Assembly: GCA_020072965.1 (NCBI GenBank) | Contig: JAIQFY010000040.1 | Coordinates: 1 to 52,411, forward strand | Direction of reading: 5' to 3' | DNA: 52,411 bases | DNA from: Terriglobia bacterium | GTDB taxonomy: Bacteria > Acidobacteriota > Terriglobia > JAIQFV01 | In this document: positions 259-30,301 of the stretch, piece by piece | How the letters are laid out: every line of letters starts with the position of its first letter | Numbering within the stretch: position 1 is the first letter of the stretch | Made by a program: the position numbers and the translations under genes | Notes under the pieces: model-generated | Database searches by the model: none | Seen by the model: the letters and a program-made list of their open reading frames with translations, nothing else | What the model was told of the DNA's origin: nothing

Positions 259-966
259 TTAGTCTCGGACAAAAGCTTCATCCCCCAACGCCACCTGCGC
301 CTGCAACTGGTCCCACGGGATCTGGATCAGGCCCTCCCGTGCGGCCGACTCCACATACTCCCGATACCTCTCCACGCGCTGACTCTGCTCTCCCCCCAGC
401 CACGCCAGCACCGCGTGGGTGCTTAACCATGCGGGCACCGGCTCCAGGCCAATGTAGGCGCGATAGGAACTCCACCGGTAGTTCCTCAAAAACTCAATGC
501 GATCCCTCCACACCGCGGTCCCCAGTTCCCTCCCTGCTCCCACTTGATTTCGTCGCCGAGTCTGCTTGTTCAAGGCGAAGCGCTCGACGCGAATAGGATT
601 GAGGTGCACATAACGACTGAGCTCCAACCCCCAGCGTTGCGGCTCCACGATGATGGCTTTGAACCGCCCTTGCAGGAGGTGTCCCGCCCGCCGGTGTCGC
701 CCATTGAACCAGCTGCTGTACCCACTATTCAACCATTGCATGGCCCGGCTGAGGTTCGCTTCCAGCGTTTCCAGCAACCCATGCCAATGATTGTCCATCA
801 GGGTGTAAACATGCAGACGCAGGCGATACCGCTCCGTCATTTGGCTGAGTCGCCTCAGAAATTCTCGCCGGTCCTCGTCATCACGAAAAATCAGCTGCCG
901 CTCATTCCCTCTCGACGTAATGTGATACCATCCCCCTTCGCACTGAAGGCGTAACGGCCTGGCCAT
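259..966 (-). CDS. REP-associated tyrosine transposase (Y1/HUH), probably C-terminally truncated
   Basis: Single-strand DNA transposase of the Y1/HUH (RAYT) family. It begins MARPLR, the usual start of this family, so I place the start at 966 rather than at an in-frame ATG 33 bases upstream. The HUH metal site is seen as MDNHWH (residues 58-62, His60 and His62), and the catalytic tyrosine as Tyr119 in YVHLNPIR. The N-terminal substrate-side motif YHITSRGN is at 14-21. At 235 aa it is shorter than the roughly 300-aa relatives with a full C-terminal helix-turn-helix, and it stops shortly after the LGDEAF segment, so the DNA-binding tail may be missing. GGGTCAG motifs flank the gene. It may be inactive; it does not closely resemble the second RAYT at 29328-29837. 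Confidence 0.88.
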   Translation of the reverse strand: MARPLRLQCEGGWYHITSRGNERQLIFRDDEDRREFLRRLSQMTERYRLRLHVYTLMDNHWHGLLETLEANLSRAMQWLNSGYSSWFNGRHRRAGHLLQGRFKAIIVEPQRWGLELSRYVHLNPIRVERFALNKQTRRRNQVGAGRELGTAVWRDRIEFLRNYRWSSYRAYIGLEPVPAWLSTHAVLAWLGGEQSQRVERYREYVESAAREGLIQIPWDQLQAQVALGDEAFVRD

Positions 967-1016
967 GGGAACTCCACTGCGGGGGAAGGTTGGAAGCAAA
1001 GGCCCTCTCTGTGGGG

Positions 1017-1332: not shown

Positions 1333-1719
1333 TCACCTTCGCACTTCGACGAGTTCCCCATGGATTCCGTAAAACTTCAAGCCGGGCTCCGGAAGGAGTC
1401 GCATACTAATTTCAAGTTTAGCCGCCGAGGTAAGCGCCAAGTTCTGCCGGCGGCTAAAGATGAACAACCTGGTCTCATATAAGAACGTTCCGTTTGGCGC
1501 GCCCAGGATCTCACGGCTGCGCGGGTCAATTGCGTAAAGCATACCGTTGGTCGCTTCAACCAGCAGTACGCCATGCCGTTTGAAGACAGCCCCATCGCTA
1601 AACTTTTGCCCATTTATCTCGACTGTGGCAGGTATCCGCCACCAAAAATTGGACCACAGCACAAAAGATAGAATGAGTAGGAGTCCTAGTGCCCCAATCG
1701 CAGATGTCTTCCGTTTCAT
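1333..1719 (-). CDS. Small membrane-anchored protein, candidate immunity protein for the RHS effector
   Basis: A 128-aa protein with an N-terminal transmembrane or uncleaved signal segment (about residues 8-25, GLLLILSFVLW) followed by about 95 residues predicted to lie outside the inner membrane. I do not recognise a family. The start at 1719 is well supported: its ATG overlaps the RHS stop codon (ATGA), and a strong GGAGGAGG ribosome site lies inside the end of the RHS reading frame. This overlap implies translational coupling to the RHS protein. Because the RHS tail looks like a Cys/His cell-wall hydrolase, a membrane-tethered periplasmic partner is what an immunity protein would look like. 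That role is inferred from position and topology only. Confidence 0.7.
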   Translation of the reverse strand: MKRKTSAIGALGLLLILSFVLWSNFWWRIPATVEINGQKFSDGAVFKRHGVLLVEATNGMLYAIDPRSREILGAPNGTFLYETRLFIFSRRQNLALTSAAKLEISMRLLPEPGLKFYGIHGELVEVRR

Positions 1720-3602
1720 TGTGGGACGAGCCTCCTCCATGTGACTTGATCGATTTGGTGACCTTGCTGTGCTAGACCACGAACGGTGCCTCCCACCGTA
1801 TTCGCTTTCACTATGCTCGAACCGGCATAAACGACGACATTGCCCCCGACAAAGATCGCCGAATGCCCTTCTCGACCCGCCGCTTGGGCATGGAACCCTA
1901 CAACATCACCAACCCGCGCTGACGACGGGGTAGTTTGCCCTCCTCCGACCACCGCCAAACCAGTTATACCTTTATTCTTGTCTCCAAGATCATTCGCAAT
2001 GGGTGGGTAATTGCTTCCGAGCAGTGTTTGGTTCGTTGGATAACCTCTTACGCCATCCCACCCGACGCCAGCACCGTTAGCATACTGCTCAGCAACAAAG
2101 ACGTTGCATTTGTCTGTCCTTGGGCCGTATGAGCCGGTATATCCGTTGTCGGGCAGGTCAGCGTCAAAGGCGTACTCTGTACTGCCCAAATTGTTAAGAG
2201 CGCTCATAGCAGCACCCAGCCCGGCCGGGTCCGAAGCTCCATCGGGGACAGCTGCAATAGTAGTGTTGACGTCTGCAATAGCGGCTGCAGCTTGCTTGTC
2301 CCCAACTTGTATCGCGAGCTTTTGTTGAGCCTCTTGGAGCCGTTTCTTCTCCTCCTCAGTTGGATCCCGGTGGCCATCGGGATCGGCCGCAAGTATCGGG
2401 TTATTGTTGATGTAGCTATAGAGATTTAGCGACTGGGGATTTCTCAGGTCGGCATATGGGATTGGAACAGGAAGCAGGCTCCAGTCTGGCGACGTCCAGC
2501 GGCCCATGTTCGAGCCGTAGTATCTCGCCCCAAAGTAATCGAGGCCGGATTCGGCGTCCCGTTCTTTGCCGGTAAACTTCTGGTTGATCGCATCGAGCTG
2601 TTCGTAGCCCATCACCGCGGTCCGTCCACCGACTCCCGCAGGGATGGTTTCTCCAAACGGGAGGTAATCGTGACGGGAGATGACAGCTCCTGAGGCATCG
2701 GTCACGAGGCGTGTGCTTCCGAGGTGGTCTGCCGTTAAAAAACTTGTCCCAGTCCCCGCTGGCCCCCCTGTCGAGTACTCCGCCGTCAATTTTCCCGCAG
2801 CATCATAGACAAAGATTGTCGTCACACCACCAGCCACCTTTTTCACCCGCCTACCGTCCCCATCGTAACTGTAGGCTCCAGATCCACTATTGCCAGCGGC
2901 GCTGACCAGGCGGTTCTCGGCATCGTAGTTGTACTGGGCGTTGCTAGTGGGATCATAAGTCAGGTTTCCCGCGTTGTCGTGAACATAGCCCGGGTCATTG
3001 ATCCGATTCTTGATATGGTCAATGCCCGGGATTAGCAATGGCGGCAAGAAGGGCGAGTCCGACCTCTGACCTCCGGTGCGATTTCCATACTGGTCGTACT
3101 CGTACGTGTACCACCACAAATCGTTGTTCTCCCCAATCTTCTTCAGGCGGTTCAATGCATCATATTCATATTTCTGGTTCATCGAAGTCGCGCCCACTGA
3201 AATCATCTGCGTCAGCACATTGCCATTGTTGTCGTTTTGCCCGGTGGTGTTGTAAGAGTACGCTAACTTAAGGACCGAAGAATCGGTGCCGGAGGTGCCC
3301 AATCCGATCTCTGTCGGCTGCAACCGACTCCCGTATTCCGCATGCTTCTCCGAGGTCATTCCACCTGCCAGATTATACCCGTAATACATCTTGTAGGTTT
3401 GCGAGCCAGTCGTCTGCCAGCTCTCAGCTACTCGCCCCATGCCATCATAACTCTTGAAGTCCGTGATTGAAACGCTGGAATTGACCTGGGTGAGGCGGCC
3501 CTTGGAGTTGCTGACACTCGAGTCATCGTAGTGGTTATGCCTCGCGTATCCGTCTTCGTGAGCAGGTTTCCGTTGCCATCGTACGAATATCCTTGGGACC
3601 AT
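1716..3602 (-). CDS. RHS repeat protein, C-terminal part with Cys/His hydrolase-like tail (frameshifted from 3428-6787)
   Basis: This frame continues the RHS protein of 3428-6787 after a one-base frameshift near 3530; residues before about 25 are out of frame with the family and probably not real protein. It has YD repeats (YDALNRL, YDAENRLVSA, YDGDGRRVKK), the RHS core motifs DHLGSTRLVTD and FTGKERDAESGLDYFGARYY, and the core end motif NLYSYINNN...DPDG (ending at residue 411). Beyond DPDG lies a 217-aa variable tail. The tail has a cysteine in DKCNVFVAEQY (Cys499) and a histidine in GREGHSAIFVGG (His580) after a GDVVGF turn, the order seen in NlpC/P60 and CHAP-like amidases. So the tail is probably a peptidoglycan-directed toxin. 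Its stop overlaps the next gene by ATGA. Confidence 0.85.
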   Translation of the reverse strand: MVPRIFVRWQRKPAHEDGYARHNHYDDSSVSNSKGRLTQVNSSVSITDFKSYDGMGRVAESWQTTGSQTYKMYYGYNLAGGMTSEKHAEYGSRLQPTEIGLGTSGTDSSVLKLAYSYNTTGQNDNNGNVLTQMISVGATSMNQKYEYDALNRLKKIGENNDLWWYTYEYDQYGNRTGGQRSDSPFLPPLLIPGIDHIKNRINDPGYVHDNAGNLTYDPTSNAQYNYDAENRLVSAAGNSGSGAYSYDGDGRRVKKVAGGVTTIFVYDAAGKLTAEYSTGGPAGTGTSFLTADHLGSTRLVTDASGAVISRHDYLPFGETIPAGVGGRTAVMGYEQLDAINQKFTGKERDAESGLDYFGARYYGSNMGRWTSPDWSLLPVPIPYADLRNPQSLNLYSYINNNPILAADPDGHRDPTEEEKKRLQEAQQKLAIQVGDKQAAAAIADVNTTIAAVPDGASDPAGLGAAMSALNNLGSTEYAFDADLPDNGYTGSYGPRTDKCNVFVAEQYANGAGVGWDGVRGYPTNQTLLGSNYPPIANDLGDKNKGITGLAVVGGGQTTPSSARVGDVVGFHAQAAGREGHSAIFVGGNVVVYAGSSIVKANTVGGTVRGLAQQGHQIDQVTWRRLVPQ

Positions 3603-28014: not shown

Positions 28015-28878
28015 ATGAGCGAATACCCCTCCGGTTCTATGAGTGAATGCCAGGTAGAATCATGGCCGCACCGGCGATTCTCATTCAGGTTAAGCCATCT
28101 CTTACTAAGTTTTGCTTTCGTTCTGTTTCAGGCAATTCCCTCGCTTGCTCAAGACAACTATGAGATTCAAGTCTATGGAGCCGACACCGTTGCTCGGCGT
28201 CAGACGATGGTGGAGCTGCACAGCAACTTCACCATCTCCGGGAGCAAGGCTGTGGTGAATGGACTGTTTCCGACCAACCACTCTTTTCACGAGACTCTCG
28301 AAATCACGCATGGGATAACTGACTGGTTTGAGCTGGGTTACTACAACTTCACCTCCGCCCGATCCGGCGAGGGTTGGGACTGGGTCGGAACGCATCTGCG
28401 CCCCCGCGTCCGTGTGCCGGAGGAGCGGCATTGGCCGGTAGGATTGAGCCTCTCCATGGAATTTGGCTATCAGCGCCGTCAATACTCTCCGGACACCTGG
28501 ACCATTGAAATTCGTCCCATCATCGACAAGCAAGCCGGCAAATGGTACCTCTCGTTCAACCCCTCCGTCGATCGATCTTTGGCGGGCGAAAACAAGAACA
28601 AAGGATTTGCATTCTCCCCGAACTTCAAGGTGAGTTACACGCTCATCCCGAAGGCGAGTGTGGGCTTGGAGTATTACGGATCGCTGGGACCCATCTCCAA
28701 ATTCGATCCGCTGAGTGAGCAAGAACAACAGATTTTTTCTGCCGTCGATTTGAACCTCTCCCCCGACTGGGAAGTGAACTTCGGGCTGGGCGTGGGAATG
28801 ACCCGCAGCACCGACCATCTCATTGCGAAGCTAATCCTGGGTTACCGGTTCAAGAAGTTTCCATTCTCGAGACACTGA
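28015..28878 (+). CDS. Probable outer-membrane beta-barrel protein
   Basis: A 287-aa exported protein with a signal peptide ending ...FQAIPSLAQDN (about residue 46). The mature part alternates aromatic and polar residues in strands typical of outer-membrane barrels (WFELGYYNFTSA, YLSFNPSVDRSL, ASVGLEYYGSLGP, WEVNFGLGVGMTRS) and ends in LILGYRFKKFPFSRH. I do not recognise a named family; substrate or role is unknown. The start is weakly supported, since no clear ribosome site is seen, and an ATG 24 bases later is an alternative. Its last 90 bases were duplicated at 29043-29132 together with the palindrome beyond the stop. A GTAG palindrome begins seven bases after the stop codon. Confidence 0.7.
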   Translation: MSEYPSGSMSECQVESWPHRRFSFRLSHLLLSFAFVLFQAIPSLAQDNYEIQVYGADTVARRQTMVELHSNFTISGSKAVVNGLFPTNHSFHETLEITHGITDWFELGYYNFTSARSGEGWDWVGTHLRPRVRVPEERHWPVGLSLSMEFGYQRRQYSPDTWTIEIRPIIDKQAGKWYLSFNPSVDRSLAGENKNKGFAFSPNFKVSYTLIPKASVGLEYYGSLGPISKFDPLSEQEQQIFSAVDLNLSPDWEVNFGLGVGMTRSTDHLIAKLILGYRFKKFPFSRH

Positions 28879-28884
28879 AGCCTT

Positions 28885-29043
28885 GGTAGCCCCGGCGAGC
28901 GTCTTTCTCGCCGGGGGCTTGTGTGAGAAGCTGTTACGATTCTGGTGTCTCACAAGAGCTCTGAACTAAAGGCCATCGATAGGGGTAAATCAATCGTCTC
29001 CCGAAGATTCATAATTTCTGTGAGCCGGCGCACAAGCCCCCCG
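28885..29043. repeat. REP pair (BIME), copy A, right end truncated
   Basis: Starts GGTAG, then stem CCCCGGCGAG / CTCGCCGGGG, as in copies B and C. Its interior resembles copy C (shared words TCACAAGA, TAAAGG, ATCAATCGT, AATTT). The inverted partner on the right is cut at ...CACAAGCCCCCCGGCG, where the duplicated gene tail begins. It lies directly after the barrel gene and may act as its terminator or mRNA 3' stabiliser. Confidence 0.75.
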
Positions 29044-29184
29044 GCGTCGGAACAACATGCAGCACCGACCATCTCATTGCGAAGCTTATTCCGGGTTATC
29101 ATTTCAAAAAGTTCCCATTCTTGAGGCACTGAAGCCTTGGTAGCCCCGGCGAGCGTTGTTCTCGCCGGGGGGTCGTGTGAGAGG
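29043..29184 (+). repeat. Duplicate of the barrel gene tail plus adjacent palindrome
   Basis: Bases 29043-29184 repeat 28789-28930 at an exact offset of 254, covering the last 90 bases of the barrel gene, its stop codon and the left REP. A few substitutions have accumulated. It is a non-functional gene fragment made by tandem duplication. Confidence 0.85.
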
Positions 29185-29323
29185 TCATCAAAATGACGAG
29201 CTCAACTAAGATATTCCGTGCACTCATGACAATGATCTTGCCCCAGGATGTCGTCAAAGTCAGGATCGGTGAGACGTCGCGCAAACGCCCCCGGCGAGAA
29301 GAACGCTCGCCGGGGCTACCAAA
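29139..29323. repeat. REP pair (BIME), copy B, next to the RAYT stop codon
   Basis: Left palindrome GGTAGCCCCGGCGAGCG... at 29139 and the inverted partner ending ...CGCCGGGGCTACC at 29320, then AAA. The right end is 4 bases from the stop codon of the RAYT gene. The interior is only weakly similar to copies A and C. Confidence 0.8.
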
Positions 29324-29327
29324 CCAA

Positions 29328-29837
29328 TCATCCCCTGTAATCATCTGAAAGATGAATGTAATCGATCTGAATCGGGCACGCAGCTACCGCCGACGGATCC
29401 AACGAAAAATTGTTATAGCTTGACCAGCGCCACTCTTCTGGTCGGGACACCAATCCTTTTCGCACTGGATTGAGGTGCATATATTCCAACCGTTCATTGA
29501 ACTCTTTCTTATTCCTCGCGAAACGGTCCCAGAAGCGATGTTGCCAGAAGTCCCCATAGGTCCTGCGGGATGCGTTCAGCCGGCTGGACGAGACCTCCTT
29601 GATTTCCTTCAACACTCGCGAAATGGTCAGAGGAAATTGTGGCCAAATCAGGGTGTGCCAATGATCCGGCATAAAGACGTATCCACAAAGAATAAACCCC
29701 ATCCGCCTTCGGGCTTCCTTGAAGACATCAATCAACAAGTCGAATTCAAAATCGACAAGGGGGAGATGGCGGCGAAGGAGGTTCGAGGTCCTAAAGAAGA
29801 TGCGGTCTGTCTCGCGCAAGCGACGAAGCTTCGTCAT
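29328..29837 (-). CDS. REP-associated tyrosine transposase (RAYT), flanked by its REPs
   Basis: Y1/HUH single-strand transposase, 169 aa, the compact RAYT type. HUH site MPDHWHTLIW (56-65; His59, His61). Catalytic Tyr119 in EYMHLNPVRKGL. The segment WQHRFWDRFARNKKEF between them is typical of RAYTs. A good AAGGAG ribosome site precedes the ATG, so the gene looks intact. GTAG-type palindromes lie on both sides (copy B ending at 29323, copy C from 29951), the REPtron arrangement in which a RAYT acts on its own REPs. The related gene at 259-966 has an extra C-terminal region and different flanks. Confidence 0.93.
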   Translation of the reverse strand: MTKLRRLRETDRIFFRTSNLLRRHLPLVDFEFDLLIDVFKEARRRMGFILCGYVFMPDHWHTLIWPQFPLTISRVLKEIKEVSSSRLNASRRTYGDFWQHRFWDRFARNKKEFNERLEYMHLNPVRKGLVSRPEEWRWSSYNNFSLDPSAVAACPIQIDYIHLSDDYRG

Positions 29838-29950
29838 GGATTCTCCTTATTGCGGGGGAGGGGGATGTTCTATTCGTCGTAGGCAGGGGGAATGACCCGT
29901 CTAGTGTAGTTAATTCAGAATAAAAGTTGAGAATTACTTTGGGGTTTGTT

Positions 29951-30141
29951 TTTGGTAGCCCCGGCGAGCGTCCTTCTCGCCGGGGGCTTGTACGAGAAGT
30001 GTTCAGTATGCTGGCTCTTCACAAGAACGCCGAATTAAAGGTCATCAATCGGGGTTGATCAATCGTTTTCTAAAATTCAAAATTTTGATGAGCTTCTCGT
30101 ACAAGCCCCCGGCGAGAAGGACGCTCGCCGGGGCTACCAAA
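29951..30141. repeat. REP pair (BIME), copy C, with 49-bp perfect terminal inverted repeats
   Basis: Arms 29951-29999 and 30093-30141 are perfect 49-base inverted copies, beginning TTTGGTAG. Each arm holds GTAG (29955-29958 on the left), a ten-base-pair stem CCCCGGCGAG/CTCGCCGGGG with loop CGTCCTT, then GGCTTGTACGAGAAG. The 93-base centre is AT-rich. The total of 191 bases could be mobilised as a unit by the RAYT next door. Confidence 0.9.
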
Positions 30142-30301
30142 TCTGAATCCCCGCACGTGTCATTCCCTTTAAAAAATAAAGGGAGACCGGTTTCTGAAAC
30201 CTGCAATAATATGTAAGCACCGATCCGATGGGTCCGAAAGAGTTTGAGAATACCCATGGACGATACAACGCTGACCCCCATTTCGCGAAAGGCCTACTCC
30301 C

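Follow-up and report, generated by a model that had tools for sequence, protein, structure and literature searches.

The locus considered here lies in a stretch of 52,411 nucleotides (the window). It comprises a gene for a REP-associated tyrosine transposase (RAYT), whose open reading frame has no internal stop, and, within 1.26 kb around it, five exact copies of the palindrome GTAG-CCCCGGCGAG-N7-CTCGCCGGGG (REP), which consists of GTAG, a stem of 10 bp and a loop of 7 nt (Table 1). An earlier reading from the letters alone (the sequence-only reading) had seen here an intact RAYT gene between GTAG palindromes with a ten-base-pair stem, and this description is exact at all five REPs; also right were the distances of pair B to the stop codon and of pair C to the start codon (113 nt) and, upon recomputation, the arms of pair C (49 nt each, 100% complementary, separated by 93 nt). 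That the palindromes are paired is correct for B and C, which are complete, but of pair A only the left REP is whole. The gene is thus flanked by inverted REPs. In 100 dinucleotide shuffles of the window no REP match was obtained, even when 3 mismatches were allowed, and as single-stranded DNA the window REPs fold into hairpins with z values of −3.2 to −4.5. The host genome is acidobacterial and not that of a proteobacterium, the group for which the sequence-only reading had cited the GTAG hallmark; its 16S gene has no mismatch to the probes Acido31 and HoAc1402, which we take to be specific for Acidobacteriota.

Table 1. Features of the RAYT locus, with positions in the window (for the active site, residues of the protein)
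Feature	Position	Strand	Basis or remark
Upstream gene	28015-28878		
3' end of upstream gene and bases up to REP A	28789-28882	+	source copy of duplicated tail
REP, left element of pair A	28886-28916	+	exact pattern match
Stretch missing at orthologous G001 site	28896-30260		borders good to about 20 nt
Interior of pair A	28933-29020		homologous to interior of pair C
Right REP of pair A, truncated	29031-29046	-	stops after CCCGGCG; duplication junction at GGCG
Second gene-tail copy, before pair B	29043-29136	+	repeat comparison
REP, left element of pair B	29140-29170	+	exact pattern match
REP, right element of pair B	29289-29319	-	extended arm 4 nt from RAYT stop
RAYT	29328-29837	-	169 aa; profile match and active-site motifs
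RAYT active site	His59, His61 (HUH motif DHWH); W98-Q99; catalytic Tyr119		motifs
Left arm of pair C	29951-29999	+	contains REP 29955-29985
Interior of pair C	30000-30092		93 nt
Right arm of pair C	30093-30141	-	contains REP 30107-30137

The RAYT is recognized by the NCBIfam model NF047646 (REP_Tyr_transpos) with 105.1 bits (cut-off 80) and also by Pfam Y1_Tnp, and it matches in sequence the solved TnpA-REP 4er8 (E = 1.3e-12), from which match the positions of its motifs were taken. It has the Y1 HUH core of a RAYT, with a tyrosine motif of the type YxxxNP (YMHLNP) rather than YxxxQ. The combination DHWH, WQ and Y[MI]HxNP is kept throughout the RAYT clade and equals none of the consensus sets given for the TnpA-Y1 subclasses 2.2, 2.4, 2.5 and 2.7 in Table 1 of PMC6006769, in a comparison of consensus motifs and not by a tree with the sequences of that paper; the clade is perhaps a new subclass. 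A contig scan of the named genome collection gave one partial match to the RAYT, and this was acidobacterial.

In the genome of the window (G000) the RAYT model has 26 matches, of which eight are above the cut-off. The closest relative of the window RAYT, which lies on contig C67, is the copy on contig C10 with 70% identity, and the gene itself is therefore not a high-copy element. The window copy is absent from the sister species G001. The C10 copy has an orthologue there (91% amino acid identity), with a dN/dS of 0.105, which indicates purifying selection. Between the window RAYT and the G001 RAYT dN is 0.21 and dS is near saturation, as compared to 0.46 for the species pair; the C67 and C10 lineages separated long before the two species did. 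A second Y1/HUH protein is encoded in the window at 259-999 (minus strand). It has 246 amino acids with the motifs NHWH and YVHLNPI, scores 54.9 bits with the RAYT model (cut-off 80) and adjoins a protein of 628 amino acids (1716-3602, minus strand) that by eye resembles a YD-repeat/RHS protein.

The three REP pairs of the locus do not have the same history. Positions 28789-28928 and 29043-29182 form a direct repeat (86% identity) that includes 90 bp from the 3' end of the upstream gene, and the right REP of pair A is truncated because the GGCG junction of this repeat falls inside it. A and B are thus derived from a tandem duplication, host gene sequence included. The duplication is not recent, since each of the two tail copies is about as different from the other as from the G001 tail (86–87%). 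Pairs A and C have homologous interiors (score 59 versus a shuffle maximum of 25), as had been noticed from the letters. The further proposal that the whole unit of about 190 bases is mobile had to be given up: neither B nor the C22 and C100 doublets have this interior, and in the rest of the genome the matches are to the arms alone. With the interior common to A and C only and A/B explained by duplication, mobility of the unit is without support beyond the locus, and the doublets are not dispersed as units with a common spacer, as REPINs would be. The perfect arms of pair C had been taken to imply recent activity. This is possible but unproven from the arms alone, since gene conversion can also keep inverted arms alike.

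The palindromes are not confined to the locus, which is what a REPtron, as the locus had been named from the letters, leads one to expect. A search of the 5.9-Mb genome with the REP pattern at up to 3 mismatches gave 23 hits, a few of them palindromes read a second time on the other strand, versus none in the reversed control. The census, which is based on pattern searches, amounts to about 21 copies of the family and is a lower bound because contigs C35 and C7 break off in or close to REP arrays; even so, it is below the more than 100 copies per genome described as usual for REPs (PMC2817692). Seven copies are exact, five of them those beside the RAYT. Of the dispersed REPs, 15 were checked, and every one falls between predicted genes; the palindromes are thus, in head, structure, repetition and extragenic position, GTAG REPs. 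On C35 (L100) and C7 (L101) the arrays, which lie at or near the contig ends, alternate two GTAG palindromes, of the GTAGCCTCCCCGCGG and GTAGCCTCGCCGGGC types, with about 170 bp per full step.

Around the C10 RAYT, palindromes of alternating types form a BIME-like array with a step of about 142 bp, and the G001 orthologue of this RAYT sits in a similar one, the steps of both being 142–145 bp. The two RAYTs are differently placed among the same neighbouring segments (L107, G000:C10:18000-24211; L108, G001:C2:9000-28000), which looks like a displacement of the REPtron over a few kb. Stepped arrays of this kind are what unequal exchange would give, and together with the tandem duplication A/B and its GGCG junction they fit the view that the window locus is a relic, i.e., that the RAYT is inactive and that the local repeats arose by ordinary recombination and replication slippage. 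We consider this improbable. The open reading frame and the active site are intact, the distance to the G001 RAYT is that of a gene with few amino acid replacements relative to near-saturated silent sites, and dispersed REP copies lie on many other contigs.

That the RAYT and its REPs are parts of a REPtron is further supported by their changing together. Acidobacterial RAYT loci whose protein is at least 41% identical to that of the window number 31; a GTAG palindrome lies within 600 nt of the RAYT at 30 of them, and on both sides at 23. The stem begins GTAGCC with RAYTs that are at least 53% identical to that of the window and GTAGCG with those that are less than 49% identical; the sole locus with the other dialect (L118) adjoins another RAYT of the second (GTAGCG) type. 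On the RAYT tree, which has modest support at its deep forks, the dialect changes twice as compared to a shuffled mean of 10.6 changes, and none of 500 shuffles was as low. The REP stem dialect thus follows the RAYT tree. Over 55 distinct REPs of 31 nt from several genomes, Watson-Crick pairing holds at 510 of the 550 stem positions (shuffle mean 470, maximum 483), and there are compensating swaps at pair 3 (C-G/A-T) and at pair 7 (C-G/T-A). The pairing count carries a bias, the pattern used for the search being a palindrome.

On the 3' side of the hairpin GCTTTT is kept over six bases with about one bit each and nothing beyond, and on the 5' side of GTAG little is conserved in the RAYT-flanking copies except one G. 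The enzymes described in PMC8266576 cleave next to the REP, at C|T, and the CT just 3' of the hairpin is therefore a candidate cut site. The other reading of GCTTTT is the U-tract of a terminator, and it could be argued that the palindromes, which are GC-rich hairpins, many of them followed by GCTTTT, and which are extragenic in all dispersed copies checked, serve mainly in transcription termination or in the stabilization of mRNA ends, the RAYT being an incidental neighbour. This appears quite improbable. It cannot account for the joint change of stem and RAYT across loci or for the conserved GTAG head, and several dispersed REPs lie antisense to, or upstream of, both neighbouring genes. For the window REPs themselves a terminator function was rejected, as a terminator search found no such site at them. 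A search of Rfam found no known structured RNA between 27500 and 31500.

The sister species offers a comparison of a different kind. In G001 the upstream gene (86% amino acid identity) and the nuclease gene (92%), on either side of the REPtron in G000, are adjacent with 63 bp between them, the whole REPtron of about 1.36 kb being absent, and the genome has one intact REP of the window family as compared to about 21 in G000 (26 hits minus other-strand readings of the same palindrome). Locus and REP family are thus jointly present in one sister species and, but for one REP, jointly absent from the other. The G001 junction (L138, on G001 contig C10) reads TTGGAGAGCCCCGG and resembles the start of a REP. 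REP-like starts are also kept by the G001 alleles of the C100 site (TTGGTAGCCC; L169) and the C96 site (TTTTGGTAACCCCGG; L165). All three are either relics left after loss or pre-existing target ends. Of the two flanking genes, just one has a homologue in G002 and G003, and only one other genome was found in the genus.

Of 12 dispersed REP sites queried in G001, nine were found (not C15, C22 and C78). One of them (C36) has the same REP as in G000, and the others show a palindrome with a GTGA head (C55), an altered stem-loop (C39), a degenerate REP (C89), about the first ten bases of a REP (C100), absence of a REP unit of about 46 bp (C96), absence of a stretch of about 294 bp (C70) or no clear state (C63 and C19); the comparison is biased to apparent decay in G001 because the sites were selected for an intact REP in G000 and because the G000 consensus served as the pattern. 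Beside the REP sites of C96 (L051/L165) and C39 (L168) both species have a longer palindrome headed GGTAGTCCCGGTCCG, which looks like a further repeat family. The relics would be consistent with loss of the RAYT in G001 and subsequent decay of its REPs; the alternative direction is a gain in G000 beside existing REP ends. In G002, which belongs to the same family, there are six places with similar REPs and no close RAYT; in most of these REPs the first base of the stem is altered (GTAGACCC, GTAGGCCC).

A gain is also what an autonomous IS200-like transposon would predict, in which the RAYT and the outer REPs move together and the G001 contrast is a plain insertion in G000: the G001 site is empty, and simple related loci have the gene between two REPs in the manner of inverted ends, but this is very improbable given that the RAYT is single copy where IS200/IS605 elements have several near-identical ones, that it is without their YxxxQ motif and scores below the cut-off of the IS200 model, and that the missing stretch reaches past the REPs and leaves a REP-like start at the G001 junction. 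The window RAYT looks rather like a single-copy gene of a vertically kept kind, as its C10 relative is.

We therefore regard it as very likely that the locus is a REPtron, probably a domesticated Y1/HUH single-strand transposase together with the GTAG-tagged palindromes that it recognizes. The RAYT is intact with conserved active-site motifs, its cognate REPs lie at the locus and outside genes, and the arrangement recurs at related loci, so that in this main point the sequence-only reading was borne out. Against the REPtron speak a motif set outside the published consensus sets, the modest number of REPs, the G002 REPs without a close RAYT and the paralogous C10 RAYT, which could also act on REPs of the window family. 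From the TnpA-REP enzymes of Escherichia coli and Stenotrophomonas (S. maltophilia) we infer binding, cleavage and strand transfer by the window RAYT: by this analogy it would bind the GTAG-hairpin strand of a REP while this is single-stranded, cut at the nearby CT with formation of a Tyr119-5'-phosphate link and rejoin the cut strand, and in doing so it may spread or rebuild REPs and REP doublets in trans across the genome. A wider proposal can be made only tentatively and is, taken as a whole, doubtful: that G001 lost the entire REPtron, that its family REPs then decayed to one intact copy with altered or partial relics at C89, C55, C39 and C100, that the upkeep of REPs would thus need the cognate RAYT in trans, and that RAYTs of this distinct acidobacterial clade have a fixed cleavage site, the CT immediately 3' to the hairpin.

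By what mechanism a RAYT maintains its REPs and spreads them is an unsolved problem. The two sister species, one with and one without the whole REPtron and most intact REPs of its family, allow a direct comparison of both states; if the loss in G001 is real, they would be a natural knock-out pair. In addition, RAYT and REP stem can be seen changing together over 31 loci.

A RAYT gene between GTAG hairpins is already known from other bacteria, and what is new here, as far as the main texts of PMC3733652 and PMC6006769 go, is the acidobacterial host and the RAYT clade. The REPtrons of S. maltophilia (Sm) and Marinomonas (Ma, Mb) likewise have one RAYT per REP family, with the gene between perfect GTAG palindromes that are inverted relative to each other, and in Ma/Mb the REPs are concentrated near the gene as in the window (PMC8266576; PMC2817692). 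They differ in phylum, in the stem and loop (8 bp and 3 nt in Sm, shorter than here) and from the DHWH and YMHLNP motifs and the conserved GCTTTT found here. The E. coli REPtron shares the protein fold family (4er8) and the GTAG head, and its BIMEs alternate palindrome types as does the C10 array; however, the E. coli enzyme needs a bulge in the stem, whereas the window REPs are perfect palindromes without one. The REPINs of Pseudomonas fluorescens (PMC3116915) are also RAYT-linked inverted REP doublets with a spacer, but in the window the spacer is common to two copies (A and C) only and not to dispersed doublets. Of the same phylum are the TIRYT elements of Acidobacteria, which have Y1 tyrosine transposase genes with inverted-repeat flanks; these flanks are TIRs described in PMC3733652 as unrelated to REPs, whereas those of the window are canonical GTAG REPs. 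In the same paper the Acidobacteria are listed with TIR-flanked genes, and GTAG repeats are assigned to Proteobacteria, Cyanobacteria, Chloroflexi and the PVC group; in PMC6006769 class 3, which has a CnGA foot, is placed partly in Acidobacteria; acidobacterial GTAG REPs are not given in the main texts of either. Next to the other terminal repeats and CnGA-foot structures reported there, the window locus brings canonical GTAG REPs with their RAYT into the Acidobacteriota.
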